A stretch of 64,000 bases of DNA from positions 682,001 to 746,000 of the forward strand of contig NZ_CP020946.1 of assembly GCF_002208115.1 (NCBI RefSeq), written 5' to 3'. The stretch's first letter is position 1, and each line of letters opens with the position of its first letter. Made by a program: the position numbers and the translations under genes. Under the pieces are notes generated by a model that was given only the letters and a program-made list of their open reading frames with translations, had not been told where the DNA came from and made no database searches. Below are positions 33,071 to 60,592 of the stretch, piece by piece. The stretch is from Bdellovibrio bacteriovorus. Its GTDB lineage: Bacteria; Bdellovibrionota; Bdellovibrionia; Bdellovibrionales; Bdellovibrionaceae.

Positions 33071-33766
33071 ATGAGTGCTCTGTATCGTCTTAAGGGCCTG
33101 GAATATTCATACCTTTGGAACGGCAAGCAAGTGCCGGTTTTGAAAGGCATTGATCTGGAACTGGAAAAAGGCTGTTTCACCTGTATCGTAGGCCCGAGCG
33201 GAACCGGAAAAACCACGTTGCTGAATCTTCTGGGTCTGATTGATACCCCCAGCAATGGACACCTTGAGTTTGCGGGTGAAGACGTCACTCATCTTCCTGA
33301 ATCTGAAAAAGAAAACGTGCGCCTGCACAAGGTTGGATTCATCTTTCAGTCCTTTTATTTGATACCCACTTTGACAGTGCTTGAAAATACCTCTTATTTC
33401 CTGCCTTCGCTGGGTTACAACCACGCCAATGCCCAGAAGGTGGCGATGGAAACGCTGGATTTGTTGGGACTTGCCGATCACGCCAAGAAAAAGCCGCTGG
33501 AGCTTTCCGGTGGTCAACGTCAGCGTGTGGCCATTGCCCGCGCGATTGCAAAAAAACCTGCCGTGGTGCTGGCCGATGAGCCGACGGCGAATCTGGATTC
33601 GGTGACGGCGGAAAAAACCATCAACGCCTTCAAAGAACTTCAGAAATCTGAAAACACCAGCTTCATTTTCTCGACTCACGATTCACATCTGGTGAGTTTC
33701 GCCAAATCCGTGTACCGCATGAAAGACGGCATGATCGACAACACGAAAAACCAGGAGGCTGAATAA
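33071..33766 (+). CDS. ABC transporter ATPase, LolD/MacB type
   Basis: 231 residues. Walker A GPSGTGKTT is at 41-49, the Q-loop FIFQSFYLIPTLTVLEN near 92-108, the signature LSGGQRQRVAIARA near 141-154, and Walker B VVLADEPTANLDS near 159-171. The Q-loop/PTLTVLEN type marks the MacB/LolD/FtsE branch, whose partners are FtsX-fold permeases. The stop overlaps the permease start (TAATG). These transporters extract lipoproteins or drive periplasmic processes rather than import. The substrate is not known. Confidence 0.93.
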   Translation: MSALYRLKGLEYSYLWNGKQVPVLKGIDLELEKGCFTCIVGPSGTGKTTLLNLLGLIDTPSNGHLEFAGEDVTHLPESEKENVRLHKVGFIFQSFYLIPTLTVLENTSYFLPSLGYNHANAQKVAMETLDLLGLADHAKKKPLELSGGQRQRVAIARAIAKKPAVVLADEPTANLDSVTAEKTINAFKELQKSENTSFIFSTHDSHLVSFAKSVYRMKDGMIDNTKNQEAE

Positions 33767-34974
33767 TGTTGGAACTGTTGAAAATCTCCTGGCGCAATCT
33801 GTTCAGAAATCCTCGTCGCACCTGGGCCAGCCTTTGTACGGTGGCTTTGGGGGCTGCAGGCTTGTTGATTTATCAGGGCTTTAACACCGGCGTGATGAAC
33901 CAGTACCGCGAAAACGTCATTCATGGATACTACGGTTATGGTCAGGTGTTCCCGCAGAACTATTTCGGCAAAGTTCACGAAACCCCGTGGAAGCTGTGGT
34001 TTGAAAATGCCGATGAAATCGAAAAGCAGATCCGCAGTTCTGCATCTGTGACGGAAGTCTTCCCGCGCGTGTCGTTTTATTCTTTTATCGTCAAGGGCGG
34101 CATCACCTTGGGTGGTAAAGGCGAAGGGGTGATTCCAGAGCGTGAAAACAAGTTCTTCACGGAAATGAACTTCATCGAAGGCCACGACTTGCAAGGACAG
34201 GATCAAATCATTCTTGGCAAAGGTCTGGCGGAAAGCATCGACGCGAAAACCGGGGATGTGGTGACTTTGCTGACCCAGACTGTGAATGGTCAACTAAATG
34301 GGGCGGACCTGACCGTGGCCGGGATCTTCTTTACCGGAAAGAAAGTCATCGATGATTCCTTCTATCGTGTCGATCTGAAGCAGGCGCAGGCGCTGCTTGA
34401 TACCACTCGTGTTGAGATGTTCTCGTTGGCAACAAAGGGTGTGGAAGCTTGGCCGTCGGTGGATGCGGATTTGCGCAAAGCCAATCCGTCTTTGGAGGCG
34501 GTGCCCTTTGAGATTCTGGACAAGAACTACTATCAGAACTCGGTGGACTTCCTGAATGCGCAGTTCTCCTTCATCCGATCCATCATTCTGGTGATTGTGG
34601 CGATGGGGATCTTTAATGTGATCTCCACAGGCTTGCTGGAAAGAGCGGGCGAGATGGGCGCTCTTCGTGCTAATGGTGAAAAGCGCAGCCGTCTGTTTAA
34701 GATCCTGATGATCGAAAACAGTTTGCTTGGCATTTTGGGCGGTTTCCTGGGTATTTGTATTGCGGTTGTAGTGGATGCGACCCTGCTTCGCCAGGGGATT
34801 CCGATGCCACCGGCTCCGGGGATCACCCGTCAGTTCTTTGTATTCCTGGATATTCAGCCCAGCCACTATCTGCAGGCGCTGCTGTTGCCGATGATCGCGA
34901 CAGTGGTGGCAAGTTTGTGGCCGGTGCGAAAGCTTCTGAAGAAATCAATCCCGGAACTTCTGCGTTCCACATAA
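33766..34974 (+). CDS. FtsX-fold ABC permease (LolC/MacB type)
   Basis: 402 residues. TM1 is at about 16-36, a periplasmic MacB-type domain of about 230 residues follows, and three more membrane segments lie near 270-290, 320-345 and 365-390. The FtsX domain includes FIRSIILVIVAMGIFNVISTGLLERAGEMGALRANGEKR, a classic MacB/LolC coupling-helix region. One permease gene is present, so it probably acts as a homodimer with the upstream ATPase. It could move lipoprotein or lipid to the LolA-like carrier encoded downstream at 41130; this link is inferred from content, not adjacency. Confidence 0.9.
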   Translation: MLELLKISWRNLFRNPRRTWASLCTVALGAAGLLIYQGFNTGVMNQYRENVIHGYYGYGQVFPQNYFGKVHETPWKLWFENADEIEKQIRSSASVTEVFPRVSFYSFIVKGGITLGGKGEGVIPERENKFFTEMNFIEGHDLQGQDQIILGKGLAESIDAKTGDVVTLLTQTVNGQLNGADLTVAGIFFTGKKVIDDSFYRVDLKQAQALLDTTRVEMFSLATKGVEAWPSVDADLRKANPSLEAVPFEILDKNYYQNSVDFLNAQFSFIRSIILVIVAMGIFNVISTGLLERAGEMGALRANGEKRSRLFKILMIENSLLGILGGFLGICIAVVVDATLLRQGIPMPPAPGITRQFFVFLDIQPSHYLQALLLPMIATVVASLWPVRKLLKKSIPELLRST

Positions 34975-34977
34975 AAC

Positions 34978-35008
34978 GAAAAAAAGCGGCTGTTAAGCCG
35001 CTTTTTTT
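34978..35008. terminator. Bidirectional Rho-independent terminator
   Basis: AGCGGCT (34985-34991), loop GTTA, AGCCGCT (34996-35002), flanked by A-rich and T-rich runs. It separates the permease gene from the converging beta-propeller pseudogene. Confidence 0.9.
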
Positions 35009-36737
35009 ATTCTGTCTGCACCACTCCGGCAGCGTTGAATTTCTGCACCCGGCTGTTACCGGCTTCGGAAACATAGAAGTTGCTGCCAGCGTCGACCATG
35101 ATGTCTATAGGCATTGCAAACTCGCCCGCCGCGGCCCCGGCCTGACCATAGGTGGCCAGATGGGCTCCATCCGCAGAGAAGCGGACGATTTTATTTCCCG
35201 CCGCATCTGCGGTTAAAATGCTGCCGTCTTTGTCGATGGCGATGCCGAAGATCGTGCCTATATTGCCTTCCGTGCTTGGCAGATTTCCCAAGCCAGGGTG
35301 TTGTCCGGATTGATTTTTACCAGAGCCCGGAAGGGGGCACCAGGATTTGTGCTGACTGCATCTGAAACGACGACTCCGCCGTCGGCCGTCGCGGCTACAC
35401 TGATTGGTGAAATAAGAATGCCTGCGCCAATAGTGCCAAGTTCAACCCCCGATGTGTTTAGTTTTCTGATCAGGCCGTTGGTGGCATCTGTTTGGTAAAT
35501 CACGTCAATACCAAGGTCCTTGTCGTGGACGATGTCGATGAAGAACGTTGTTCCCGTCGGTGTGATTTCGCCCGCCGACGTTCCATCCGGATTGAACTTC
35601 ATGATTTTTCCGTTGGCCAAGTTAGAGCCATAAATAATGCCCTGGCTGTCGATGTCGATATCGTACATCATAGCGCCAGCAGCAAAGGACAGATCATTGA
35701 ATCCGGTGGTGTCAAAGCGCTTGATTCCTCCGGAGTCGCTAACATAAGTGTTGCCCAGAGAATCCCGGGCTACTCCAAATGCATTCGATAAGGTGGGATC
35801 ATATTTGCGGGCCAGAGCTCCTGTGGTTTTGTTGTAAACTCGGGTTGTGGAGCTGTTCATGACATAGACTTCATTTCCAGCTTCTGCAAAGACAACGGGG
35901 CTGCTCGTGAACTGTGTGGCTCCGGCGCTTCCATCAGTCAGATAGAGCAAAGCTCCGCTCGGATCAAATGAAATCAGATAACCATTGCTGTCACTTTGAC
36001 TGATCAGGAAGTTGCCACTGGATAACAGGGCCAGGTCACCCACGTTGCTTGATGCAACCGTTGCCGGCAGAATCAAGGGTGAATTTGGTGTTGCCCCAGA
36101 ATTCGCCATCAGCGTTGCCGGAGGTGCCGGCACCGTAAGCCGCCATTTGTGCACCTGTGGTTTTGTGGTATTTGCGAATCTGGTAGAAATAATTCAAAGC
36201 CAGATACACGTTGTCAGAAGAATCAAAGGCAATGTCCTGAGCCGACGGGAACGTGCCGCCTTCCTGAACAAACTCCTTAAACACACCCTGGGAAACTCCT
36301 TCAAGATTGTATGTTTGAATGTATTCACGAACCGCGACACCACCACTGTCTCTTTCGATAAGACCAACATAAATCAAGCCCGTTGAGTCCACGCCCAAGC
36401 AGCCGATGTCGCCGGCCGGCCATTTTGAGGCCGCAGGGAGGTTGATGCTTCTCAATTGCTTTCCTTCAGCAGTAAAGACATAGATCTGATGTTCAAACAT
36501 GGAAGCAGAGACAAACTTGTTCCCCGGTGCCGCACTCAAAAATGACTTGTTCCTAAGGTTGAAAGCGGGTTGTCCCAGAGGGAAACTTCCTTTGATCACG
36601 GTCACAGTTGGAGTTTGATCATCTCCGCCAGTGGATGGCGAAACGATTTCGCCAAAGCGATCCAAGCTCATAGTACAAGCCGATGTTGTCAAGACAAGGG
36701 CAAGAAGTGTCAGTGTGGTTGAAAATTGCTTGAACAT
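35007..36737 (-). pseudogene. NHL/beta-propeller lipoprotein with two compensating frameshifts
   Basis: One gene of about 577 codons in three frames: 36737-36036 (lipobox TTSAC, Cys21, and the first blades), 36154-35258 (middle), and 35291-35007 (end). The outer pieces share a frame. An apparent extra base near 36058 moves into the middle frame and an apparent missing base near 35285-35300 moves back. All pieces carry propeller-type repeats (DSQGIIYGSNLANGKIMKFNPDG, VDAGSNFYVSEAGNSRVQKF). No start with a ribosome binding site precedes the inner pieces. It may be a decaying gene, a phase-variable one or a sequencing artefact. An intact version would be a secreted 6-bladed-propeller lipoprotein. 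Confidence 0.7.
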
Positions 36738-36979: not shown

Positions 36980-37978
36980 ATGAGAGTGTCCGTCCTTGTT
37001 AATTCCAAAGCAGGCTCTGTGAACGCAGAGTTGATCGAGGCGAAAGTGCGTGAAGCGCTTTTCCGCTGCGATCTGCGTTTCTGTCGTCCTTCGACGATGA
37101 CAGAGATGTTTGACTTTGTTCAGGAAGAGCAAGCGAAGAAAACGGACTACTTTATTATCTGCGGTGGTGACGGCACTATCAACGTGGCGATTCAGGCCAT
37201 CATGAAATATCAAAACGGCGCGCAGATTCCTCCGATTGCCATTGTTCGTTCCGGTACCGCCAACGATTTGGCTCATGAAATTGGTGTATCCACCAGAATT
37301 GATACCGCTGTTCGCAATATCTTTGAAGGTGTTGTGAAAAACATCGACGTGATTGAAGTCAGCTCGGGTGAACAAGTCGCTTACATGCTGACCAACGGAG
37401 GTCTGGGACTTCCGGCCAAAGCGGCCGAACTGGCTAATAAATTCCGTTCTCACTTGCAGACCTTGGCGAATTGTCCGAAGTCGGCAAAGGCTTATCGTTT
37501 CCTTGCACAGAAAAGTTATCACGCGGTCAAAAAAATGGGGCCGAGTGTTTATTCCATGATGACCGCCGAAGCGATTCGCACCTGGAATCCTGAAGGCTGG
37601 GGTCTGGAAATTGAAATTCCTGGAAAAGTGAATGTTGAAACGTCGTCTCCGATCGTTCTGATCAATAATCAGCAAAAGATCGGCTCCAGTTTTGTCCCGG
37701 CGCCGTTTACCTCCAATACAGACGGTACGGTGAACCTGCTTCTTTCTGAAACCAACAGTATTCCTGGGCACACTTTGGCGGCATACCACCTCCGTCGCGG
37801 TTCCGTCGAGAAATCTCCGGTCTTTAAGTCTTTCGAGCTGAAAGAGTTCAGACTAAAGAGCCAGAATCCCGAGCGTGCTTTGACTTTCTTTGGGGATGGC
37901 GAGATCCTTCTCAGAGATGTTCAGGAAATCACAGTTCGTTGCCTGCATCACGGACTGCCAGTCATGGTCCGACAATAG
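36980..37978 (+). CDS. Diacylglycerol kinase-like lipid kinase (YegS/DagK family)
   Basis: 332 residues. The catalytic glycine-rich motif is FIICGGDGTINVAIQAI (GGDGT 62-66), with IPPIAIVRSGTANDLAHEIGV near 89-109, the hallmark of the DAGK catalytic family. The C-terminal half is a beta sandwich ending in GDGEILLRDVQEITVRCLHHGLPVMV. Enzymes of this family phosphorylate diacylglycerol, ceramide, sphingosine or other lipids. It is 18 bp before an SDR gene and heads the predicted lipid operon 36980-44003. The exact substrate is unknown; sphingolipid-type substrates are possible because bdellovibrios contain sphingophosphonolipids. Confidence 0.88.
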   Translation: MRVSVLVNSKAGSVNAELIEAKVREALFRCDLRFCRPSTMTEMFDFVQEEQAKKTDYFIICGGDGTINVAIQAIMKYQNGAQIPPIAIVRSGTANDLAHEIGVSTRIDTAVRNIFEGVVKNIDVIEVSSGEQVAYMLTNGGLGLPAKAAELANKFRSHLQTLANCPKSAKAYRFLAQKSYHAVKKMGPSVYSMMTAEAIRTWNPEGWGLEIEIPGKVNVETSSPIVLINNQQKIGSSFVPAPFTSNTDGTVNLLLSETNSIPGHTLAAYHLRRGSVEKSPVFKSFELKEFRLKSQNPERALTFFGDGEILLRDVQEITVRCLHHGLPVMVRQ

Positions 37979-37996
37979 TTCTATTCGGAGGTCATC

Positions 37997-39016
37997 GTGA
38001 CCAAACCACGCATTCTCGTTACCGGAGGCACCGGCTTCCTGGGGAAACGGGTCATTCCTTTGCTTCGCGAAAAATTCGAGGTGGACGTGTTGTCTCGTTC
38101 GGGCAAGACTGAAGTCCAGGGCGACCTTTGTCAGTGGAATGCAGGCCTGGATCTGGATGCCTTACGCAAAAAGAAGTACGCACTGTTTCTGCACATGGCG
38201 GGGCTGTATGAACTGACTGCTCCGAAAGTGGATTGTTACCAGCACAATATCTCGGCCATGGGCACCGCTTTGAAAGTCGCCGAGGCTTTGGAAATCCCTT
38301 TCTTCGTCAACACCAGCACTGTGGCCGCGGGCATCAATTCTTCTTTGACCGTGGTAAAACCCAACGATCTGAATTTTCAAAAGACGTTCCCGGATGCTTA
38401 TTCCGAATCCAAAGCTCATGGTGAACAGGTCCTGCAAAACTGGCCGACGGTTCACACCACAGGCCGCATCAATCTGCGTTTGGGGGTTTTGGTCGGGGAC
38501 ACGAAAACCGGCAGCATCGAGCGCATTGATGGCCCTTATCATGCGGCAGAGGCATTTAATAAAATACGCTCGGTGGTTGAATCCATTCCGACATCTTTGC
38601 CGCTTCCTGGGAACGACAAAACTCGTTTGCCATTGGTTCCGGTCGACAAGTGTGCGGAAGCCATTGTGAAGTTCTGTGAATGGGCGGTGCTGACCAAACC
38701 TCAGGGCTATCACAGTTTCCATGTAACCCCGAATCAGGGTTTGGCGGTGCGGGATCTTTATCTTTCTGCTTTAAAATCGCAGGCCATTCCGCATAAAGGA
38801 GTGGTCCTGGTCGACAAGATCTCTGAAGCGCTGGTGCTGAAGCTTTCCAGTTTTATCGCGCGCTTCCCGGAAGAAGAGTTGCATTACCTGATGAACTTCC
38901 CGATCTACGACACCACCAGCACGCGCGAAATTCTGGGCGAAACATGGTGTCCTGAATTCTTCCAATACGAACAAAAATTCTGGAGCGGCTATGAAGCGTA
39001 CGTATCGAATCGCTGA
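37997..39016 (+). CDS. Extended SDR, NAD(P)-dependent epimerase/reductase
   Basis: 339 residues from GTG 37997 (CGGAGG six bases upstream). The dinucleotide motif is GGTGFLG at 10-16, and the catalytic YSESK is at 135-139 (Tyr135, Lys139), with Ser/Thr from the VNTSTVAAG segment. The sequence resembles 3-beta-HSD or thioester-reductase type SDRs, which act on lipids and sterols, more than sugar epimerases. Its end overlaps the following acyl-ACP-reductase-like gene by 26 bp, so the two are made together. A dehydrogenase or reductase of lipid carbonyls is the best guess. Confidence 0.8.
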   Translation: MTKPRILVTGGTGFLGKRVIPLLREKFEVDVLSRSGKTEVQGDLCQWNAGLDLDALRKKKYALFLHMAGLYELTAPKVDCYQHNISAMGTALKVAEALEIPFFVNTSTVAAGINSSLTVVKPNDLNFQKTFPDAYSESKAHGEQVLQNWPTVHTTGRINLRLGVLVGDTKTGSIERIDGPYHAAEAFNKIRSVVESIPTSLPLPGNDKTRLPLVPVDKCAEAIVKFCEWAVLTKPQGYHSFHVTPNQGLAVRDLYLSALKSQAIPHKGVVLVDKISEALVLKLSSFIARFPEEELHYLMNFPIYDTTSTREILGETWCPEFFQYEQKFWSGYEAYVSNR

Positions 39017-41120
39017 GATCAGTTTCGGACGCCCCCACTGGGATGCCGCCTATGAATTTGACTTTGCCGGGGACCACTATGAGGTTCAGCGCTTTAGTGC
39101 CAATTTTTCTGTCGATGCAGTCGTCAGACTGATCGAAACCCTGCGCAATCAGGTCGACGCGTTTGCCTTGACCAGTCTGCCGCCGGTGATCAAACTCGAT
39201 CAGAAAAGCTACGTTCACCGCCAGTATCTGGAAATCATGGCCACACCTTCCCCGGTGCCTTTGTGTGACGGGACGGGTTTGCGTGAAATGGCCAATATCA
39301 ATTCTCTGGTCAAGCACATCGAGTCCGGGGTCATTCAGCCTGAACGGGGAACCTTCTTCCCGACTGCCGTGCTTTGCACGGAGCTTGAAGAGTACATCCG
39401 TCACCGTTATCGCAAATCTGTCTATATCGGCGATGCTTATTCACTTTTGGGTCTGCCGTGGATGATTCAGCCGTTCCCGGGCCTGATGACGCTTTCAAAG
39501 CTGGCTTTGAATGTCGCCAACATCAAGGACATGAAACGCAATACTCCTCTGGCGCAGACCAAGATGCAGAAAATCAGTCGGTCTTCTTTGGCAGCCCAGG
39601 TTGAAAACGTGCAGTACGTTTTCTGTGATCTGCCGATGCTGCTTTTGTTTGATCAGGCGACGGATTTTGTGCGCGGTAAGGATCTGGTGATCTGGTCCTC
39701 GCATCCGGCAATGGAGGAAGAAGCCAAGAAATATTCCCCACGCAGTATCATCAATCTGTTCCCGGAAAACTACCGGGTGCATCCGTATATGAACTATTCG
39801 GTTCTGGATGCGATGCTGCGCCTGTCTCACAAACGCACCGCCGCTTTGTCCATTGAAGAGTGGGAGCAGTTGATCACTGAAGACGTCGAAATCCGTCAGG
39901 TCGCACGTAAATACGTGATGACTCGTAATTCGTCTACGCAGACAAAGATCTCTCAAGGGTTTAATGCGGTTCGAAACAAAGTGTTCAGCCAGCCTGAACC
40001 GGATTTTGCCTTTGTGATTCATGCGCTTTCTCACAATGACTTTATGCATGTGCCGGGACTGGGTGTGCTGAAGCATATGCCAAAGACCTGGAATGATCCG
40101 TTTGACCGAATGGCCGCGAAAGCGCCGCCGTTTGTTTACGGTCATATCAAGCACATCATCAGCGAAAGCAATGGCAAGGAAATCAACGGGATCATCTATG
40201 CCTTGCCAGCCACACCCAAGGTTCTTAAGAACTCGGACCCGGAAGTGATTTATCGCAAGATTGAAAGTATCTGTTATGATGCCGCCAATCGCGGGGCGAA
40301 GATGATCGGCCTTGGTGCTTACACGAAAATCGTGGGCGATCAGGGGATCACGATCAATCAGAACAGTCCGATTCCAGTCACCACCGGAAACAGTCTCAGT
40401 GCCTCGGCGACGTTGTGGGCTTTGGCCGATGTGGTTCAGAAGATGCGCCTGTTAAAGCAGGACACCGACACCGGCTATGTCGATGGCATGGCGATGGTGA
40501 TCGGGGCGACGGGCTCTATTGGTAAAGTTTCAGCGAAACTGTTATCGATGATCTTTAAGCGTCTGTGTCTGGTGGCTCCACGCCTGAACCGTTTGGAAGA
40601 ACTGCGCCAGGAAATCCAGCAGATGTCGCCGAACTGTGAAGTGATTATCACCACGGACGCCAACGAGCTGGCGGCGGATGCCGATGTGCTGGTGACGGCG
40701 ACTTCGGCATTTGATCACAAGATCGTGGATGTGATGCGCTTAAAACCGGGCGCGGTGGTGTGTGATTGCTCGCGTCCGCTGGATTTTGATATCGAAGATG
40801 CCAAACAGCGTCCGGATGTTTTGATCATTGAATCCGGCGAGGTGGTTTTGCCGGGACCGGTGGAAATGAACTTTGACATGGGTCTTCCGGGAAACACTGT
40901 GTATGCGTGTCTGGCTGAAACGGCGCTGCTGACTTTGGAAGGTCAGTATGAGCCCTTCACCATGGGGCGCGATATCGAATGGCACAAAGTAAAGCAGATC
41001 TATCAGATGGCGAAACGCCATGGGGTCAAGCTGGCGGCGATTCAGGGGCACACCGGAATTATCACGGATAAGGAAATCGAACTGACCCGGGAACTGGCTT
41101 TGTCTAAAAGAAAAAAATAA
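38991..41120 (+). CDS. Large protein with acyl-ACP-reductase-like C-terminal half
   Basis: 709 residues. Residues about 330-700 resemble cyanobacterial long-chain acyl-ACP reductase (AAR, fatty aldehyde-forming): GLGAYTKIVGDQG then VTTGNSLSASATLWAL, the Rossmann motif GATGSIG (505-511), and VYACLAETALLTLEG, where Cys640 aligns with the AAR active-site cysteine in FACFAEA. The first 320 residues match nothing I recognise; they may form a second domain or partner-binding module. AAR proteins are about 340 residues, so this is a fusion or extension. It overlaps the SDR by 26 bp and precedes the LolA-like gene by nine. It may make a lipid aldehyde or a related carbonyl. Certain as a Rossmann enzyme; probable as AAR-like. 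Confidence 0.72.
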   Translation: MKRTYRIAEISFGRPHWDAAYEFDFAGDHYEVQRFSANFSVDAVVRLIETLRNQVDAFALTSLPPVIKLDQKSYVHRQYLEIMATPSPVPLCDGTGLREMANINSLVKHIESGVIQPERGTFFPTAVLCTELEEYIRHRYRKSVYIGDAYSLLGLPWMIQPFPGLMTLSKLALNVANIKDMKRNTPLAQTKMQKISRSSLAAQVENVQYVFCDLPMLLLFDQATDFVRGKDLVIWSSHPAMEEEAKKYSPRSIINLFPENYRVHPYMNYSVLDAMLRLSHKRTAALSIEEWEQLITEDVEIRQVARKYVMTRNSSTQTKISQGFNAVRNKVFSQPEPDFAFVIHALSHNDFMHVPGLGVLKHMPKTWNDPFDRMAAKAPPFVYGHIKHIISESNGKEINGIIYALPATPKVLKNSDPEVIYRKIESICYDAANRGAKMIGLGAYTKIVGDQGITINQNSPIPVTTGNSLSASATLWALADVVQKMRLLKQDTDTGYVDGMAMVIGATGSIGKVSAKLLSMIFKRLCLVAPRLNRLEELRQEIQQMSPNCEVIITTDANELAADADVLVTATSAFDHKIVDVMRLKPGAVVCDCSRPLDFDIEDAKQRPDVLIIESGEVVLPGPVEMNFDMGLPGNTVYACLAETALLTLEGQYEPFTMGRDIEWHKVKQIYQMAKRHGVKLAAIQGHTGIITDKEIELTRELALSKRKK

Positions 41121-41129
41121 GGAGATGTC

Positions 41130-41825
41130 ATGAAGACACTTTTGGCGATCAGCAGCTTGTTATTCTCTTTGCATGCCCTGGCGGAAAATCCCGCGGAATG
41201 GGTGAAAAAGGCGGACAATATCCGCAATCCTGCTGAATCCTATGAAATGAAAATCAAGGTTGAAACGTCTGAAAACACCTCGGTGTTCCAGGTTTATTTG
41301 AAAGGTCAGGATAAAACCCTGATCGTCACCAAAGAACCTGCCCGTGACAAGGGTCGCAACATGCTGATGCTGGATCGTGATTTCAACGCGTATGTTCCGA
41401 ATCTGAAGCGTTCCATGCGTCTTTCTTTGGCGCAAAAGCTTTCCGGTCAGGTGGCGAACGGGGATATTTCCCGCACCCGCTGGTATGGTGACTATGATGT
41501 GACCAAAGAAAGCGAAAACGCCAACGAAGTTCAACTGCTTTTGAAGGGCAATAAAGACAATCTGACTTATGCGTGGGTTCGCCTGTGGCTTAAGAAAGGG
41601 ACCTTTGCTCCGTTGCGTGCGGAATATCTGGGTTTGAATGGTAAAACGGTCCTGAAGCGCGCAAGCTTTGAAGACTATAAGAGCATCTCGGGCGCCGTCC
41701 GTCCGACGACTTTGAAGATCGAAGACACTAACAAACAAATCAGCTACATCCGTATTCTTTCCATGGACAAGAAGGACTTCAGTGACTCCTTCTTCACGGT
41801 CCGCAATATGGAGAGCATGAAATAA
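41130..41825 (+). CDS. LolA-like outer-membrane lipoprotein-sorting protein
   Basis: 231 residues with a signal peptide (about 1-18, ALA). The mature part matches the LolA-like family (PF17131 type): KVETSENTSVFQVYLKGQDKTLIVTKEPARDKGRNMLMLDRDFNAYVPNLKRSMRLS and LWLKKGTFAPLRAEYLGLNGKTVLKRASFEDY. These proteins carry hydrophobic cargo through the periplasm on an open beta barrel. GGAGATGTC lies before ATG. The next gene starts directly after its stop. It would accept a lipid or lipoprotein from an FtsX-type ABC transporter, such as that at 33071-34974, and pass it to the outer membrane. Confidence 0.82.
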   Translation: MKTLLAISSLLFSLHALAENPAEWVKKADNIRNPAESYEMKIKVETSENTSVFQVYLKGQDKTLIVTKEPARDKGRNMLMLDRDFNAYVPNLKRSMRLSLAQKLSGQVANGDISRTRWYGDYDVTKESENANEVQLLLKGNKDNLTYAWVRLWLKKGTFAPLRAEYLGLNGKTVLKRASFEDYKSISGAVRPTTLKIEDTNKQISYIRILSMDKKDFSDSFFTVRNMESMK

Positions 41826-42893
41826 GTGAGATTTCTGGTTCTTCTGACACTTCTGATGATGACTCCTTGGGCGAGGGCAGACCTGGTGTTTGCGCCTCGC
41901 TATGAGTATATCCGTGGTCAGGAAGACGAGCTGGCCAACCGCCTGATTCTGAAAGGCAAACTGAACAGCAATCTGGGGCCTTTCGGAGTTTTTATTGAAG
42001 GCTTTGGCGACTTTGAGGGCAATGAAGATCAAGCCTATATCCGCCGTTCTCCTTCAAAAGGTTATCTGCAGGAAGCCTATCTGGAGTTCAAGCTGGACTC
42101 ATTCTATGTGCGGGTGGGCCGTCAGGCCATTCGCTGGAGTGAAATGTGGTCCCTGCCGTCTTTGGACGTGTGGTCGGGACGTCGGTGGGCAAGATTGTTT
42201 TTTGATCCGTTCCAGGATCAGCTGACTCATCCAACCGGGGCTTCCTTTTCCTATGCCCGTGAAACGTGGTCCTTGGATCTGGTCGGAATCGGGGATGTTG
42301 CCGAGTCCACGTATCCAATTCCGGCACCGGAGCCGGTTGAAGAAAAAAACACCAGTTTTGGTGGCCGTCTGAAGATGGACGTCAAAGGCTTTGGCTTGTC
42401 CCTGGTGTCAGCGCAGATTCTGAATCGCAATCACCATGGCTTTACCGCCAACTATGCCTTTGAAACCGCAGTTCCCAAGTTTGAATACGGCTATGTGGAT
42501 GACACCACCTTGCCCGACACGATCAAAAGTGATCGCAGCTTTGGCACGGTCGGGATGGATCTGTTCCTGGGGAACTGGGTGGTGCTGCCGCAGGTGACCG
42601 CTTATGAGGTCAACACACTGACGGGGACGCAGACTCAAGTGTCTTATTACGTCAGTGCGCAGTGGAATCCGAACCGTCATGACGTGTTCTTCCAGCTTTA
42701 TCAGAACGACACGACCAAGGATCTTTTTGTGAATGCCAGTTATGGTTATAACTGGACGGATTATTTTACTTCCACTGTCTTTGCCCAGAGCTATCAGGGG
42801 AAAGACGGCGGGCTTTACGATATGTATGAAGAAATCACCGGCGGTTATGTCGTCGGTTTGCGTTTGGAATTTACCGGCAGTTTGCCTTTTTAA
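41826..42893 (+). CDS. Outer-membrane barrel (DUF1302/alginate-export-like)
   Basis: 355 residues from GTG 41826, directly after the preceding stop (TAAGTG). Signal peptide about 1-18 (ARA). The mature protein is barrel-like with FYVRVGRQAIRWSEMWSLPSLDVWSGRR, the GRQxIxWG-type segment seen in DUF1302 and alginate-export proteins, and ends in a barrel strand (LRLEFTGSLPF). Proteins of this type are often found beside LolA-like carriers and RND or ABC exporters for lipids. A receiver for the carrier's cargo is the natural inference. Confidence 0.75.
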   Translation: MRFLVLLTLLMMTPWARADLVFAPRYEYIRGQEDELANRLILKGKLNSNLGPFGVFIEGFGDFEGNEDQAYIRRSPSKGYLQEAYLEFKLDSFYVRVGRQAIRWSEMWSLPSLDVWSGRRWARLFFDPFQDQLTHPTGASFSYARETWSLDLVGIGDVAESTYPIPAPEPVEEKNTSFGGRLKMDVKGFGLSLVSAQILNRNHHGFTANYAFETAVPKFEYGYVDDTTLPDTIKSDRSFGTVGMDLFLGNWVVLPQVTAYEVNTLTGTQTQVSYYVSAQWNPNRHDVFFQLYQNDTTKDLFVNASYGYNWTDYFTSTVFAQSYQGKDGGLYDMYEEITGGYVVGLRLEFTGSLPF

Positions 42894-42905
42894 CGGGAGT
42901 CAGCA

Positions 42906-44003
42906 ATGGCAAAAGAATACTTCTCTGATTTAAACTACACCCTGTCCAACGAAGACACGCGCATTGAATTTGATTTGCTGCCCGAGGGCGCGAACCGTGT
43001 GTTCAGCATTGCCGGTTCCGGCGCTCGCTGCCTGCCACTGATTGCAAAGAATCCGAAATATCTGGATGTTATCGATATGTCGGTCAGTCAGCTTTATCTG
43101 TGCGAGCTGCGCCTGCAGGCGATGAAGACTTTGACCTATGAAGAATACCTGTTCCTGATGGGCTATCGTGGGGCTTTGCAGGGCGGCCATGACGAAGGCG
43201 ACAGCCGTGAAGAGCTGTTCAAGCGTTTGACTTTGTCCGCCGCCGCCACCAGTTATTGGCAAGATCGCGTGGAAGGCTGGAAGCCGCGTGGATTTATTCT
43301 GTTGGGCCGCTGGGAATCCCATTTCCAGAAGCTGGGTTATTTGTTCCGTGATGTCTTGCAGTGTGATTTCAGCAAGGTCTTTGCCGCACAAACCTTGTCC
43401 GAGCAGATCGATCTTTATGAAAAGCACTGGCCGAAAATCCGCTGGAACAGTTTCATCCGTGTAGCTGCCAGTGAATTTGTATTTAACAAGTATCTGTACA
43501 AAGGCCACTTCAGTGGTCGTGCCGATCACAAAACTGAGCAGCGGGCCCCGTGGCAGTTTATCATGGAAGAATTTGACCGTATCTTCCGCACCCAACTGGT
43601 GCGTAAGAACTATTTCATGCAGATCCTTTTCCTGGGCCGCATTGCTTATGAAGAAGGCCTTCCTTTGGAAGCGCACGAACACGTAGTCGCGGCAGTGAAG
43701 AAATCAAAAACGGAAGTGCGCTATTTGCATGGCAATCTGCTGGAAGAGCTGCCAAAGTATGCATATGACTTTATCTCTTTATCTGACACGATTTCTTATC
43801 TTGAACAGCGTGATGCCAATCAGATTTTGCAAAGACTGAACACAGACAGCAAAGCCGGCACCCAGATGGTGATTCGTTCATTCATGCGTGCGCCAACGGC
43901 GATTGATCTGAAGGGGTGGGAAGAGCTGGGCGACAAGAACGTCTGGGCCCAAAATAAAGATGGAACAGGAGTGTACCAGTTCCACATTTTCAGAAAATCT
44001 TAG
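42906..44003 (+). CDS. BtaA-like (DUF3419) S-adenosylmethionine 3-amino-3-carboxypropyl transferase
   Basis: 365 residues of DUF3419/BtaA type: EGANRVFSIAGSGARCLPLIAKNPKYLDVIDMSVSQLYLCELRLQAMKTLTYEEYLFLMGYRG is the conserved N-terminal half with the SAM-binding GSGAR region and acidic VIDMS. A second SAM-fold segment (YDFISLSDTISYLE) is near the C-terminus. BtaA transfers the aminobutyrate part of SAM to diacylglycerol, giving diacylglyceryl-homoserine, the precursor of betaine lipid DGTS. No BtaB methyltransferase lies beside it, so the product could be the homoserine lipid itself or another head group. GGGAG precedes ATG. Last gene of the lipid operon. Confidence 0.8.
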   Translation: MAKEYFSDLNYTLSNEDTRIEFDLLPEGANRVFSIAGSGARCLPLIAKNPKYLDVIDMSVSQLYLCELRLQAMKTLTYEEYLFLMGYRGALQGGHDEGDSREELFKRLTLSAAATSYWQDRVEGWKPRGFILLGRWESHFQKLGYLFRDVLQCDFSKVFAAQTLSEQIDLYEKHWPKIRWNSFIRVAASEFVFNKYLYKGHFSGRADHKTEQRAPWQFIMEEFDRIFRTQLVRKNYFMQILFLGRIAYEEGLPLEAHEHVVAAVKKSKTEVRYLHGNLLEELPKYAYDFISLSDTISYLEQRDANQILQRLNTDSKAGTQMVIRSFMRAPTAIDLKGWEELGDKNVWAQNKDGTGVYQFHIFRKS

Positions 44004-44010
44004 AATTAGA

Positions 44011-44038
44011 AAGGGAACCACTTGGTTCCCTTTTTTTT
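44011..44038. terminator. Rho-independent terminator of the lipid operon
   Basis: GGGAACC (44013-44019), 4-nt loop, GGTTCCC (44024-44030), then eight T on the plus strand. Confidence 0.9.
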
Positions 44039-45728: not shown

Positions 45729-45821
45729 AGGGGTGGTGTAAACTGGACGTGGATTAAAAAAGTAATCTGACGCCGGACTTTTGTGGTGCGCGTTTGTGCC
45801 GCCGGTGTCTATACTTGGGGA

Positions 45822-46520
45822 ATGACTACGCCGGCGAATAAAAAGTTTTCTGCTCAAGGGCTGTGCCTTCTGGTTGAAGATCAGAAAGTGGCGCGGTTGT
45901 TTTTTCAGAACACTCTGAAATCATTGTTTCCAGAACTGCAAATCGTGGCGGTAGAGAATCTGCGTCTGGCCGAAGAGTGGCTGATGGGGCGTTCGCAAAC
46001 CGGCAATGATCAACCTCTAAGTCTTGCCATCATAGATCTGGGTTTGCCGGACGGAAGTGGCATCGAGCTGATCCGCAGTCTGCACGCTGCTGAACCCGCC
46101 ACGCCCAGCATTGTGGCGACCATCTATGACGATGATGCCCGTTTGTTCGGCGCCCTGGCGGCGGGGGCTTATGGGTATGTTTTGAAAGACGACGGAGCAG
46201 CCCGCTTGGAAGAAATTTTGTCACGCCTGAGCACCGGGGAACCGCCGTTATCACCGGCCATCGCTCATAGATTATTGAATCATTTCCGTTTTGAAGCTCC
46301 TGCGACACCGCCCGTGGAAAGTGTGCTGACGTCCCGGGAAGTGGAAGTGCTGACATTGATCGCGCGCGGCCACACGGTGCAAGAGGCTTCCCAGCACTTG
46401 AAACTGAGTGCGCAGACCGTCGCCGGTTATGTGAAAAGCATCTATCAGAAGCTGCACATTTCCAATCGGGCTTCGGCGACTCTCGAAGCCATTCGCCTAG
46501 GACTGGTTCGCAACTCCTGA
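45822..46520 (+). CDS. LuxR/NarL-family response regulator
   Basis: 232 residues from ATG 45822; the longer GTG frame at 45783 adds atypical residues. The receiver domain (about 8-125) has an acidic pocket (VEDQ) and the phospho-accepting Asp in LAIIDLGLPDGSG. The output is a LuxR helix-turn-helix (about 165-230): LTSREVEVLTLIARGHTVQEASQHLKLSAQTVAGYVKSIYQKLHISNR. It converges on the histidine kinase gene with their 3' ends overlapping by 24 bp, so they form a likely cognate pair despite opposite strands. Target genes are unknown. Confidence 0.93.
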   Translation: MTTPANKKFSAQGLCLLVEDQKVARLFFQNTLKSLFPELQIVAVENLRLAEEWLMGRSQTGNDQPLSLAIIDLGLPDGSGIELIRSLHAAEPATPSIVATIYDDDARLFGALAAGAYGYVLKDDGAARLEEILSRLSTGEPPLSPAIAHRLLNHFRFEAPATPPVESVLTSREVEVLTLIARGHTVQEASQHLKLSAQTVAGYVKSIYQKLHISNRASATLEAIRLGLVRNS

Positions 46521-48542
46521 CAGGGGCATTTGCAGAATGATCCGGGTTCCAGAACTTCCGGATTCATAGTCAAACGACCCGCCTACATCCTGCCAGCGCC
46601 GTTTAATATTCTGCAGACCGTGGCCTTCGCGTGAAGAAGGCGCTGCGGCCCCGATCCCGACACCATTGTCATGCACGGTGATGTGCAGACGGTGTGATTC
46701 CAAAGCGACGGCGATGTGCAAATGGCTGGCTTGCGAATGCCTTAGTACGTTGCTGACGATTTCACGCAATGATGATTTTAACGTCTTGTGCTTGTGAAAA
46801 CTGATCAGGATCTTTTCTGCGTCTTCAGAATAATTCAGCGGCCAGTCCAGATAGACTTTGCCTTCAGTCAGACGGCGGGACACTTCGTGACGGGTTTCGG
46901 CCAAAGCTCTTGCCAGCGAAATTTCCTCTTTCGACATTTCGCTGACGATGGCGCGAACATCATCCAGTGCAGACTGGAAAAGAGGACGATGCTGTTCATC
47001 CGAACTATAAATAGCTGACAGCAGACGGGCTCCAAGATCGTCATGCAGATCCTGCGCCATACGCTGGCGTTCTTCGCTGACGCCACGGTCATAGGACTCA
47101 CGACTGGAGTCAGCCTGTTTTACCAAAGCGGACATCTGTGTGGCAAAGTCACGCAGGCTTGGACTGAATAAACCCTGTCCTGCCTCGGGATATTTAAGGC
47201 GGATGGCGGGCATCCCGGCAACGGCGGGGATGAGCAGGGTCAAACCACTGTCCAGAATCTCAGTCGTGGCAGGTTGCTCGGAAACGACCTGCAGCTCTAA
47301 CGGGTTGTATACTTTTTTAAGCAAAGACAGCCACTTCTCGGTTCGTTCGTGTTCCGAGCGGGCAAAGACCACGTTCAGGGCTTCGGGCAAAAATTCATAA
47401 GGTGTGGTCAGTTCCCGCTTGCGCAGGAATCTTTGAATCGAGTCGCGCAGTGGCAGATAGGCAAAACCCACAATCAGCACGGCAAGTCCCAAAGCTGGCA
47501 GGCGGTCCACACCCACCATATAGATCAAACCGGCATCCAGCAGAACTAGGCCCATGGCACCCAGGGAATAGAACAGGAACTTAAAGGCCCAGTTGCCCAC
47601 GTCAAACAGACGATACTGGGTCAGCCCGGCGGCAAGTCCCAGATAGATGATCAGGAAGAATAAAAAGGCATAGCCCTGATTCAGTGGCTCCATCCCCAGA
47701 ATCAATGGCAGGGAATTGAAGGCGACAAAAGATCCCGCTCCGGTTAGTACGGCAAGCCCCAGCCAGGTCAGGGAAGCTCGTTCCTGTGCTTTCCCGCGAG
47801 TGGCAAAGAACTGTGCCCCGATCGCGATCAGGATACAGATCATCATGGTCAGAATCAGAACACTGAGATGAGCCCATGGAGCTGTCAGTTGCAGCGAGTG
47901 CAGCGTGGCCCAGGCAAGGAAGATCACGGTCAGAACGGATGCCAGAGTCTTCCAGCGCGGCAGACGGTGCGGATACACCAGGAACAAGGCAATCATGCTG
48001 ACGCCAAACAAAGCCGCACCCCAGGAATTCAGGTGCACCAGCCAGTGGAATGTTTCCGCCGGCAGGGCCCAAGAGCGGGACGTGTACACCGCGGAAGGCA
48101 GTGCGGAAAGGAACGTGGAAAAACCACTGAACACAAAAAAGGTGCTTGCGGCATCACGCGGGCGCAAGGCCCAGATCCAGCCCGAAATCAGAAAGGCGCC
48201 AAGTCCCACAATAAGCTGAATCCAGAACAGCAAGGGAACATCGCTCAGCGTGCGCAGATCTTTACTGGGAGCATTCTGACTTAATATTTCCTGTCGCTCC
48301 AGGAATCTGCGAAACTCGGCGTGTACACTGAGGTCGCCGGGTTCGGGCATCAGGTCTGTCTTTTCCAGAATCAGGGGGCCTTGGTGGGTCTGAACGGTGA
48401 TGCCTTCTTGCTGGGGCAGGGCGCTGCGAGGCTGTTCCAGAGCCAGATGCAGGGCCGCCAGAGCGCAGGCCGTGCAGATCAGAACGATCAGCAGGAATCG
48501 CAAAGAAGGGTTGTGAACGAAGGATGTTTTTGATGTCGACAA
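46497..48542 (-). CDS. NarX/DegS-type sensor histidine kinase
   Basis: 681 residues from a TTG at 48542 (AAGGA nine bases upstream). A first membrane segment lies near 13-32, then a short periplasmic loop, then seven to eight membrane segments (about 108-385), an arrangement like 7TM sensor domains. The HisKA_3 phospho-acceptor is RMAQDLHDDLGARLLSAIY (His in DLHDDL), and the ATPase domain has SSLREIVSNVLRHSQASH (N box) and HDNGVGIG, GHGLQNIKRR (G boxes). This is the standard partner for a NarL/LuxR regulator, here the converging gene. Signal unknown. Confidence 0.92.
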   Translation of the reverse strand: MSTSKTSFVHNPSLRFLLIVLICTACALAALHLALEQPRSALPQQEGITVQTHQGPLILEKTDLMPEPGDLSVHAEFRRFLERQEILSQNAPSKDLRTLSDVPLLFWIQLIVGLGAFLISGWIWALRPRDAASTFFVFSGFSTFLSALPSAVYTSRSWALPAETFHWLVHLNSWGAALFGVSMIALFLVYPHRLPRWKTLASVLTVIFLAWATLHSLQLTAPWAHLSVLILTMMICILIAIGAQFFATRGKAQERASLTWLGLAVLTGAGSFVAFNSLPLILGMEPLNQGYAFLFFLIIYLGLAAGLTQYRLFDVGNWAFKFLFYSLGAMGLVLLDAGLIYMVGVDRLPALGLAVLIVGFAYLPLRDSIQRFLRKRELTTPYEFLPEALNVVFARSEHERTEKWLSLLKKVYNPLELQVVSEQPATTEILDSGLTLLIPAVAGMPAIRLKYPEAGQGLFSPSLRDFATQMSALVKQADSSRESYDRGVSEERQRMAQDLHDDLGARLLSAIYSSDEQHRPLFQSALDDVRAIVSEMSKEEISLARALAETRHEVSRRLTEGKVYLDWPLNYSEDAEKILISFHKHKTLKSSLREIVSNVLRHSQASHLHIAVALESHRLHITVHDNGVGIGAAAPSSREGHGLQNIKRRWQDVGGSFDYESGSSGTRIILQMPLSGVANQS

Positions 48543-50052: not shown

Positions 50053-52737
50053 CTATTCCGCCAGAATTTTGATGGTTCCGGCTTTGGCGTCTATTCGCAC
50101 CCTCATGCCGGTTTTCAGTTTCTTGGTCAGGCCCGGGATGCTGACGATCGCTGGGATGCCCATTTCACGGGCCACAATGGCTGAATGTGAAAGCAGACTT
50201 CCGCGTTCCACCAACAGACCTGAAATCGCCGGATACAGAGGCACCCATCCTGGATCGGTGCGCGCCGTGACCAGAATCTCGCCATTCAGATCCAGGTTGT
50301 CGCTTGGATTGATGATAACTTTCACCACACCTTCCAGCACGCCCGGACAGCATGGCAGTCCTTTCAGATCCCAGTCACCGGTTTCGCTGCTGACCTGGGA
50401 CAGGTCTTCTTCCTTGATGAACTTGTTGTTCCAGTAAACCGCTCCACGAGTCATCACACGCGGGTCGGTTTCTTCGGTGAAGCGGGCATAGTCCTTCTTG
50501 CGAAGCTCCACGAAGGCTTTCAGATCAAACGATGGCAGGGTGCCATTGTAAATCCCAAAGACCTCTTCGATGGTCAGCCAGAAGATGTCGCGTGGATTCT
50601 CCAGTGCGCCCAAAGAAGCCAGGTCCTCACCAATTGTCTGGAAGATCGTGCGGGCGATCCCGTAAATACGGGTGCGGGCAAAGCGTGTGTTCTCGCGGTT
50701 TTTCACCGCTTTGCGCGCATGCTTCAGAACCCAGAAATAGATTTTCTGCTTAAAGCCTGTCAGGTGTCCGGCCACTTTGGCCTCGGCCTGCTGGCGCAGA
50801 TTTTTTTCGTGAGTGTCGTCATGGGCTTCGACCTGACCGGACTTCAGATAGTTCTTCAGACACACAAACAGATAGCTTGGGTCGGTCAGAAGATCGATCT
50901 CTTCCAGCTTCATCTCGCTCATGCAGCGGAAGCCGAAGCGATCCAGATAGTCCAGCACCAGCTTATAGAACTCGGTGTACTGGGACTGGTTCAGGGCTTC
51001 AAGGCCTTCTTTCGGATCGGTTTCTTCAATCAGCTTGCGCAGGCCTTCATTTTGATTGGCTTTTGCAGCCAGTCGCAATAACGCCTTGGTGGGCTCGGCA
51101 CTTTCCAGTCCGCCTTCTCCGGCCAGCAGATCATTTTGAATGGTGGAATCAAGTTCTTTCAGCCACGTTGTCGTGAGCTTTCGCAAAAGACCAAAGTGCA
51201 CCATGCACAGGAAGTCGTTGATAATGGGCGCCTTCCAGCGGCCCAGCATGTTTCTTTCAACATCCATATACACGCGGATCAATTGGTCCCCGCGCATGCG
51301 TTTTAACGGCATCGCGCGGAAGCGGTCATAGTCCTTGTGGAAGGTCGTCAGGAAATCATCCACCACACTTTGGATGGTGAAGTGGTATTTAATAAAGTTA
51401 AAGCCCGTGATCGCCTTGCGCAGGCGGCCCACCGGAGTGTCCCAGGATGGATGAGGCTTGATACGATTGGCGATTTCATCGCTGAGGGCTTCAGACACAC
51501 CCATCATGGTTTCCATGAACTCGCGGTTTTGTTTAAAGCCCGGCAGGACACCGACCAGTTTGTACCAGTTAAACAGGTTGTAGTACACGCGTCCGTCCAA
51601 AGAACCCAGCATGTAACTTAAATACGAATCCATGTCCTTGATGATGTCGTTGGGAACCCCCAGGACTTCGCAGAACTGCACATAGACGGCTTTGTAGTTC
51701 CTTAGTGCGAAGCTAAAACTCAGCGGTGACGTCAGGCCGCCATAGGATTCGATGATGTTCGAATTGTCCCACAGATTCGGATAACCAATCAGATCCTGAT
51801 CCAGGCTTGTGACCGGGCGGGTTTGCAGAATATAGATCTTGCCGCTTTCCACAGCCCACTCGATATCCTGAGGCCGATGGTATTGTTCCTGGATTCTTTG
51901 CCCCAGGCGGTAAAGGCCATTCAGTTCTTCAGAACTTAAAGAGGCCGTGTTCACCTTTTCCGCACTGACCGGTTTCATTTCGCAATGACCAGAGGCGGAT
52001 TTCTTCATCATCTCTTTTTTCTCGACCAGTTCTTCCCGCAAAAGTTTTCCGTTTTTGGCATCAAGCCAGAATGAGTCAGCATCCAGGGCCCCGGAAACCA
52101 ACCCCTCGCCGACGCCATAGACAGAGGACACGACATAGCTGTCGGTCTTTTTTGCCACGGGATCACAGGTAAACAGAACACCGGATTTATCAGGGTCGAT
52201 CATGCGTTGCAGAACCACAGACACCGATATTTTTTTCAGATCAATCTTGTTTTCCAGGCGATACACCAGACCGCGTTCAGAAAACGCCGAGGCCCAGCAC
52301 TGACGGATGTATTTCAGAATGTCTGCTTTGCCGGAAACATACAGATAGCTTGAAAGCTGACCGGCAAAGGAATGGGACAGACTGTCTTCATCTGCCGCCG
52401 AAGAGCGCACGGAAAAGACTTTGTCGGACCCCAGCGACTTCAAGGCTTCGTCCAGGGACGCCTCGACAATCGCAGGCAGGGGAGTGGATTCAAACAGATT
52501 TAAAACTTCTTTTTCCGCCTGCGCAGGTGTCAGCTCCTGGCGGAGCAGGCGATCTAAAATGCCTTCCAGACGGGATTTTACATCCGCAGACTGCAGAAAT
52601 TCATGGAAGTAGCGCTTGCCGAAAACCACCCATTCAGGCACCGGCAATCCGGCCTGGGACATCAAGTAAAGATTAAAACCTTTTCCACCGGCTTCATTCT
52701 TTGCGAAAAACAGAGTCGATTTGGGGGTGACAAGCAT
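50053..52737 (-). CDS. PEP-synthase-related dikinase, rifampicin-phosphotransferase-like architecture
   Basis: 894 residues from ATG 52737 (GGGAG about nine bases upstream), six bases after the UbiA stop region. The N-terminal ATP-grasp (PPDK_N, about 1-310) has SVRSSAADEDSLSHSFAGQ and DIEWAVESGKIYILQTRPVTS. The middle (about 320-780) is unlike PEP synthase, and the C-terminus is a mobile phosphohistidine domain with GSLLSHSAIVAREMGIPA (His851). The PEP-binding TIM barrel of PEP synthase is absent. ATP-grasp, substrate domain and His domain in this order is the layout of rifampicin phosphotransferase, which transfers phosphate from ATP to a small molecule. Last gene of the five-gene operon; substrate unknown. 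Confidence 0.8.
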   Translation of the reverse strand: MLVTPKSTLFFAKNEAGGKGFNLYLMSQAGLPVPEWVVFGKRYFHEFLQSADVKSRLEGILDRLLRQELTPAQAEKEVLNLFESTPLPAIVEASLDEALKSLGSDKVFSVRSSAADEDSLSHSFAGQLSSYLYVSGKADILKYIRQCWASAFSERGLVYRLENKIDLKKISVSVVLQRMIDPDKSGVLFTCDPVAKKTDSYVVSSVYGVGEGLVSGALDADSFWLDAKNGKLLREELVEKKEMMKKSASGHCEMKPVSAEKVNTASLSSEELNGLYRLGQRIQEQYHRPQDIEWAVESGKIYILQTRPVTSLDQDLIGYPNLWDNSNIIESYGGLTSPLSFSFALRNYKAVYVQFCEVLGVPNDIIKDMDSYLSYMLGSLDGRVYYNLFNWYKLVGVLPGFKQNREFMETMMGVSEALSDEIANRIKPHPSWDTPVGRLRKAITGFNFIKYHFTIQSVVDDFLTTFHKDYDRFRAMPLKRMRGDQLIRVYMDVERNMLGRWKAPIINDFLCMVHFGLLRKLTTTWLKELDSTIQNDLLAGEGGLESAEPTKALLRLAAKANQNEGLRKLIEETDPKEGLEALNQSQYTEFYKLVLDYLDRFGFRCMSEMKLEEIDLLTDPSYLFVCLKNYLKSGQVEAHDDTHEKNLRQQAEAKVAGHLTGFKQKIYFWVLKHARKAVKNRENTRFARTRIYGIARTIFQTIGEDLASLGALENPRDIFWLTIEEVFGIYNGTLPSFDLKAFVELRKKDYARFTEETDPRVMTRGAVYWNNKFIKEEDLSQVSSETGDWDLKGLPCCPGVLEGVVKVIINPSDNLDLNGEILVTARTDPGWVPLYPAISGLLVERGSLLSHSAIVAREMGIPAIVSIPGLTKKLKTGMRVRIDAKAGTIKILAE

Positions 52738-52739
52738 GG

Positions 52740-60527: not shown

Positions 60528-60592
60528 GAAATCATGTTCCCCTTTGAGAAGACTATCGGTAAAATAAAAATAATCCTTAAGGAGTTTCAAAT

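Follow-up and report, generated by a model that had tools for sequence, protein, structure and literature searches.

BtaA transfers the aminocarboxypropyl group of S-adenosylmethionine (SAM) to form diacylglyceryl-homoserine (PMC10685587), and in microcin C synthesis MccD/MccE carry out an aminocarboxypropyl transfer that is followed by decarboxylation (PMC10491745). We analyzed a Bdellovibrio locus in which a gene of the BtaA family (DUF3419) closes a run of six genes at positions 36980-44003 of the window, that is, of the 64,000-nucleotide stretch covering 682001-746000 of a single-contig genome of 3,769,537 bases. With the BtaA/BtaB pathway this locus shares a SAM-dependent DUF3419 enzyme, likely transferring the aminocarboxypropyl group to a lipid; it differs in the lack of BtaB, a separate DUF3419 branch, about ten more conserved genes, and an amine-capping formyltransferase or GNAT enzyme. 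With MccD/MccE it shares the combination of aminocarboxypropyl transfer from SAM with later trimming of the head group, whereas the enzyme families and the peptide-nucleotide substrate of that system are different. On the evidence below we lean, by a modest measure, toward a dedicated lipid synthesis-and-export system whose front half is made up of these six genes. Starting from a fatty acid, its gene set probably makes an as yet undescribed lipid with an amino-acid head and delivers it to the outer membrane.

Inspection of the window revealed the following parts of the proposed system.

33071-33766, plus strand: LolD-type ATP-binding cassette (ABC) ATPase (TIGR02211, 203 bits, under its cut-off of 308)
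33766-34974, plus strand: FtsX/LolC-E-type permease (FtsX 2.6e-18; lolCE about 86 bits against a cut-off of 362)
36980-37978, plus strand: DAGK-family lipid kinase (DAGK_cat 5.8e-20; GGDGT and FGDGE conserved)
37997-39016, plus strand: short-chain dehydrogenase/reductase (SDR) of the fatty-acyl-reductase type (NAD_binding_4 PF07993 4.3e-16; PRK07201 1e-31; YxxxK kept)
38991-39980, plus strand: N-terminal domain of a 709-aa protein, without Pfam family
39981-41120, plus strand: C-terminal domain of the same protein, predicted acyl-thioester reductase (fold of the acyl-ACP reductase, AAR, type; Cys640)
41130-41825, plus strand: LolA-like periplasmic carrier with signal peptide (PF17131 3.5e-32, 112 bits against a cut-off of 30)
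41826-42893, plus strand: putative outer-membrane beta-barrel with signal peptide (RWSxxWxxPSLD motif conserved)
42906-44003, plus strand: DUF3419 (PF11899) protein, SAM-dependent aminocarboxypropyl-transferase-like (6e-64, 217 bits against a cut-off of 28.2)
44008-44035, plus strand: intrinsic terminator of the six-gene operon, a 12-pair hairpin with a T run directly after the DUF3419 gene
50053-52758, minus strand: phosphoenolpyruvate (PEP)-synthase-like phosphotransferase, hereafter PPS (NF004881, 1414 bits; phospho-His motif GSLLSHSA)
52740-53603, minus strand: UbiA-family membrane transferase (PF01040 6.6e-12, 45.7 bits against 34.2)
53596-56010, minus strand: Ser-type alpha/beta hydrolase (GHSWGG) fused to an OleC-like acyl-AMP ligase
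56007-56747, minus strand: formyltransferase (PF00551 1e-11; Asn-His-Asp kept)
56744-58525, minus strand: FadD11-like acyl-CoA/AMP ligase, found only near Bdellovibrio versions

The six plus-strand reading frames (36980-37978, 37997-39016, 38991-41120, 41130-41825, 41826-42893 and 42906-44003) follow one another with intervals of 18 bp, a 26-bp overlap, 9 bp, 0 bp and 12 bp, exactly the positions and tight spacing that the initial annotation had given from the letters alone. The domain identities it proposed also held in profile searches, that of the barrel through weak matches of its relatives to barrel families.

The genes that recur around homologues of this operon in other genomes are those of the window's minus-strand operon (50053-58525) and of the ABC pair (33071-34974). 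We label the compared genomes, loci, families and genera as G, L, f and g, respectively. In locus L108 of family f26, twelve counterpart genes lie on a single strand with their ends mostly overlapping, in the order kinase, SDR, reductase, DUF3419, formyltransferase, hydrolase, ligase, UbiA, PPS, LolD, FtsX and LolA-like. The same gene order was found in L109 (f26), where the LolA-like gene is cut by the edge of the fetched region, and in L123 (f29); in all three loci the LolD/FtsX genes stand within one gene run with the biosynthetic genes. From these single runs, the six-gene operon, the second operon and the ABC pair of the window very likely constitute one system. The six genes had first been described as a synthesis-plus-export unit, and they do behave as one unit, but the description was incomplete, having missed the second operon and the ABC pair.

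Adjacency within the fetched loci, with overlaps longer than 60 bp (uncertain starts) scored as not adjacent, was kept for kinase and SDR in 43 of 43 cases, for SDR and reductase in 33 of 42, for the LolA-like gene and the barrel in 15 of 16, for barrel and DUF3419 in 14 of 15, for ATPase and FtsX in 20 of 20, and for UbiA and PPS in 25 of 31. Because adjacency is kept in relatives, the six-gene arrangement is not a matter of chance. Searches of 369 genomes of the phylum for three markers detected DUF3419 in 133, the operon-type reductase in 110 and PPS (E<=1e-150) in 124. All three were present together in 97 genomes and none in 221, with pairwise odds ratios of 84-173. The same all-or-none pattern was seen within Bdellovibrio, where 16 of 24 genomes have all three markers and the other eight (G012, G013, G014, G016, G018, G022, G024 and G025) have none. 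The reductase occurred without DUF3419 in five genomes only, four of which are 72-88% complete, and genus g17 (14 genomes) gave no reductase match. The initial annotation had proposed conservation of the operon in Bdellovibrionota as a check, and scattering of the genes in close relatives as grounds for refuting its reading; such scattering was not what we saw, as the genes come and go together with their order mostly kept.

The kinase of the operon is the sole DAGK_cat match above cut-off in this genome. The 709-aa protein is, as judged from profile and model comparisons, an acyl-thioester reductase behind an N-terminal domain of no assigned family. It matched the AAR family TIGR04058 at 4e-17 (62.5 bits, under the equivalog cut-off of 449.7) and the PigE model at 4e-52, both through its C-terminal half only, the latter match spanning positions 2-351 of the 837 in PigE. 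A structure model of residues 331-697 (m07bf2d4ad3b4) was superposed on cyanobacterial AAR 6jzq with Z 31.0 and rmsd 3.7 A over 329 aligned residues, and on the carmabin TAD domain 9e4s with Z 32.1 and 4.0 A over 354. Cys640, invariant in 19 sequences, aligned to the catalytic C294 of cyanobacterial AAR, the residue mutated in entry 6jzz. The fold over residues 331-697 and the catalytic Cys are therefore what the protein has in common with AAR and PigE-type reductases; it differs from them in its extra 330-aa N-terminal domain, in having no aminotransferase domain (the class III aminotransferase fusion was not found) and in the absence of an aldehyde deformylating oxygenase (ADO) partner. A 99% identical reductase of the 709-aa type is present in two other genomes.

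For the first 330 residues, a family search found no matching family. The best PDB match of their model (m8677a4919a5d) was again AAR 6jzq (Z 10.2, rmsd 5.1 A, 240 aligned). In VIA-align, AAR ranked first with Z 9-10, followed by the unrelated periplasmic-binding and malic-enzyme folds at Z 8-9, and a profile comparison of the two halves of the protein gave an E of only 0.05 over 26 columns. The N-terminal domain may be a degenerate copy of the reductase, a suggestion and not more, because unrelated folds score nearly as high. Stand-alone homologues of this domain, about 325 aa long, lie outside the cluster in L129-L132 (genomes G104, G122, G066 and G102).

Among the enzymes of the second operon, PPS shares the ATP-binding and phospho-His architecture and the linkage to an AAR-type reductase with PigC/RedH, PEP synthase and rifampicin phosphotransferase; the models that follow NF004881 among its matches include PigC/RedH, and GSLLSHSA is invariant in 13 sequences. 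It differs in forming a subfamily of its own (the 1414-bit NF004881 match) and in being linked to UbiA and DUF3419. In UbiA, an alignment of 29 sequences demonstrated that the first Asp motif, DExKDxxxD, is kept and that the second is degenerate (E..RK). The ligase combined with a hydrolase recalls the OleBC fusions of OleABCD systems. The nucleophile of OleB is an Asp, whereas the hydrolase part here carries the Ser motif; moreover, the cluster is without OleA, and OleC models score 212.5 against 900 and 203.8 against 850 bits. The ligase part of the fusion is 48-55% identical to its counterparts in f26, f29 and one f12 genome, and 43% to that in another f12 genome. In the formyltransferase, N-I-H and the Asp aligned with those of Met-tRNA formyltransferase and are conserved in 15 sequences.

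Comparison of loci revealed two kinds of second operon, one with the formyltransferase, the Ser hydrolase and the OleC-like ligase, and the other with a GNAT acyltransferase and a different ligase (about 22-24% identical), often accompanied by a P450. The formyltransferase (14 loci) and GNAT (21 loci) are mutually exclusive, and each kind occurs within f1, f12 and f26. As both enzymes cap amines, the product probably carries an amine. This suggests a capped amine such as a SAM-derived aminocarboxypropyl head would supply, provided that DUF3419 transfers that group as BtaA does. A Ser/Thr protein kinase gene with a PEGA domain (58566-60590, minus strand) precedes the second operon by 40 bp in the same orientation and is a possible regulator or member of this operon.

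The DUF3419 gene is single copy in the genome, and we found no close solved structure for its product. In a DUF3419 tree the operon-type branch (49 rows) was split at 100/99 from a group that holds three BtaB-linked sequences of the phylum; characterized BtaA sequences were left out of this tree, and several long branches make its inner order unsure. BtaB-like methyltransferases adjoin DUF3419 in other Bdellovibrionota (G204, G222 and G273). Here, in agreement with the initial annotation, none adjoins the gene, and none in the genome was convincing, the best match reaching 25.6 bits over BtaB profile positions 60-166 only. Judged by branch and neighbors, the operon DUF3419 is outside the canonical BtaA branch and the pathway is not a canonical betaine pathway. 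By analogy with BtaA, the protein likely transfers the aminocarboxypropyl group of SAM to a lipid. Of the earlier proposal of a BtaA-like enzyme making a homoserine-type or new head group, membership in DUF3419 stands; because the branch is separate, neither diacylglycerol as the substrate nor diacylglyceryl-homoserine as the product is established. The second operon is better matched by a product whose amine is formylated or acylated.

Elsewhere, DUF3419 genes have as neighbors BtaB, a phosphatidylserine (PS)-decarboxylase-like gene (L076-L078) or SpeD (L126), all potentially capable of trimming the same head group, so that trimming next to DUF3419 may be a general pattern. In L076, L077 and L078 (G058-G060) a divergent DUF3419 gene is flanked by the PS-decarboxylase-like gene and the gene of an MMPL-type transporter, with a PigE-like reductase and PPS-like genes in the vicinity; this region perhaps makes a second, unrelated aminocarboxypropyl product.

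The transport genes resemble those of LolCDE-LolA-LolB sorting in their LolD/FtsX-type ABC pair and LolA-like family. They differ in scoring below the equivalog cut-offs, in having a beta-barrel instead of LolB, and in their linkage to lipid enzymes. Better lolCE-like copies were also found elsewhere in the genome, two genes at 268 and 212 bits where the permease of the locus scores 85.5, and from this the Lol-type parts of the locus are presumably divergent paralogues dedicated to this system. Apart from the LolA-like gene, PF17131 matched just once in the genome, within a 1021-aa frame. The secreted protein at 41826-42893 is probably a barrel, judging from its relatives; Pfam and PDB profile searches with it found no family. 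We infer that the cargo of these parts is the product of the locus.

On the reading as a lipid system, the acyl ligase would activate a fatty acid, whose thioester the 709-aa reductase and SDR would convert by reduction into an aldehyde or alcohol. Phosphorylation and joining by the DAGK-type kinase, PPS and UbiA might then link the reduced chain to a polar acceptor, and DUF3419 would add the aminocarboxypropyl head. The formyltransferase would cap the amine by N-formylation, a role taken by the GNAT acyltransferase in other clades. Finally, the LolD/FtsX pair would lift the product, the LolA-like protein carry it and the beta-barrel receive it. How the middle steps are ordered is guesswork; the locus itself is solid, and its chemistry we infer, so that it stands unproved. 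The fuller version, a new Bdellovibrionota lipid class whose chain is reduced (alkyl or alkenyl) and whose head is of the N-formyl- or N-acyl-homoserine type, with a 12-gene pathway and its own Lol-type delivery to the outer membrane, is tentative, and we would sooner doubt it than rely on it. Were the reading right, about a quarter to a third of the sampled Bdellovibrionota genomes would hold a dedicated pathway for an uncharacterized lipid-like product and an outer-membrane export line. The BtaA family would then have another role, a second one, beyond betaine lipids. There would be a defined set of genes with which to ask how special envelope chemistry serves predators, and a clear way to test whether the cargo of Lol-type machines extends from lipoproteins to other lipids.

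Several points weigh against this reading. DUF3419 might use SAM in another way. The missing second Asp-rich motif makes an alkyl-diphosphate donor for UbiA doubtful. Several f12 clusters are without transport genes in the fetched stretch. The P450 and GNAT variants resemble the tailoring of natural products as much as membrane-lipid synthesis, and the co-occurrence counts are uncorrected for shared ancestry, although presences and losses alternate within families.

The main rival is that the genes make, instead of a structural membrane lipid, a small molecule that is secreted or sits at the surface: a natural product of lipid character for predation, signalling or defence, exported by the Lol-type parts. 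The tailoring enzymes P450 and GNAT, present in many clusters, speak for it, as do the match of the reductase to PigE, the position of PPS nearest, outside PEP-synthase models, to the prodiginine ligases PigC/RedH, the patchy all-or-none presence within the genus, and a plasmid-borne relative. However, the LolA-like protein, barrel and LolD/FtsX pair are better suited to a lipid anchored in the membrane than to a soluble product. Among the genes that recur in the Bdellovibrionota clusters we identified neither a ketosynthase nor a carrier protein, and the set occurs widely across the phylum. We regard this explanation as rather unlikely, though it deserves serious attention. A betaine-lipid pathway, leading to diacylglyceryl-homoserine or diacylglyceryl-trimethylhomoserine (DGTS) amid unusual neighbors, is suggested by the BtaA family itself, but is quite improbable: it meets the lack of BtaB and the separation from the BtaB-linked BtaA of the same phylum, and it leaves the reductase, UbiA, PPS and formyltransferase unexplained.

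Production of a hydrocarbon, olefin or wax by the AAR-type reductase and the OleC-like ligase has very little in its favor beyond the presence of those two enzymes. The absence of OleA from the cluster and the Ser nucleophile of the hydrolase argue against it, and it gives no account of DUF3419, the formyltransferase and the export genes; olefin/alkane synthesis was dropped as the genome contains no ADO (PF11266). Just as slight is the chance that an unrelated system for lipoprotein sorting, made up of the LolA-like, barrel and ABC genes, merely adjoins lipid genes. The f12 clusters whose core has no transport genes nearby would agree with this, but in L108 and L123 the transport genes continue the biosynthetic run with short gaps, and better lolCE-like genes of the housekeeping kind lie elsewhere. 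Sphingolipid synthesis was also dropped, since the locus has no serine palmitoyltransferase; a genome-wide search for this enzyme was not made.

Open-access literature, to which our search was confined with subscription literature outside it, yielded no description of this locus. The papers found there that name DUF3419 are on algae, plants or fungi; none links OleC, OleB, UbiA and PEP synthase, and none contains both Bdellovibrio and betaine lipid. A scan of genome contigs with one sequence gave Bdellovibrio relatives only. Beyond the phylum, where plasmids were covered, one from the alphaproteobacterium Roseinatronobacter carries UbiA, PPS, DUF3419, an unknown gene, a GNAT-like gene and a ligase in a row, so the UbiA-PPS-DUF3419-ligase core is wider than Bdellovibrionota. 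The DUF3419 of this plasmid falls, on a long branch, in the group with BtaB-linked sequences. On a Deefgea piscis plasmid (L126), DUF3419 is flanked by speD and the gene of an iron-containing redox enzyme, and a weakly FeeM-like gene is close by. Plasmid pMK-2 of a Rhizobium sp. (L127) has in a row genes for ketoacyl-ACP synthase III, an NAD(P)-dependent oxidoreductase, a metallo-hydrolase, a 'CoF synthetase' and DUF3419, possibly another DUF3419 biosynthetic cluster.

Two further features lie among the blocks of the locus. Between the two operons (45783-48542), a response-regulator-like gene on the plus strand and a histidine-kinase-like gene on the minus strand overlap by 24 bp at their 3' ends. 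Between the ABC pair and the six-gene operon lies a secreted beta-propeller-like gene (35007-36737, minus strand) in several frames (reading frames of 94, 298 and 233 aa). It looks broken in this genome, or the sequence contains errors; in L152 and L153, which come from two genomes very close to this one, the related copies form one uninterrupted frame.

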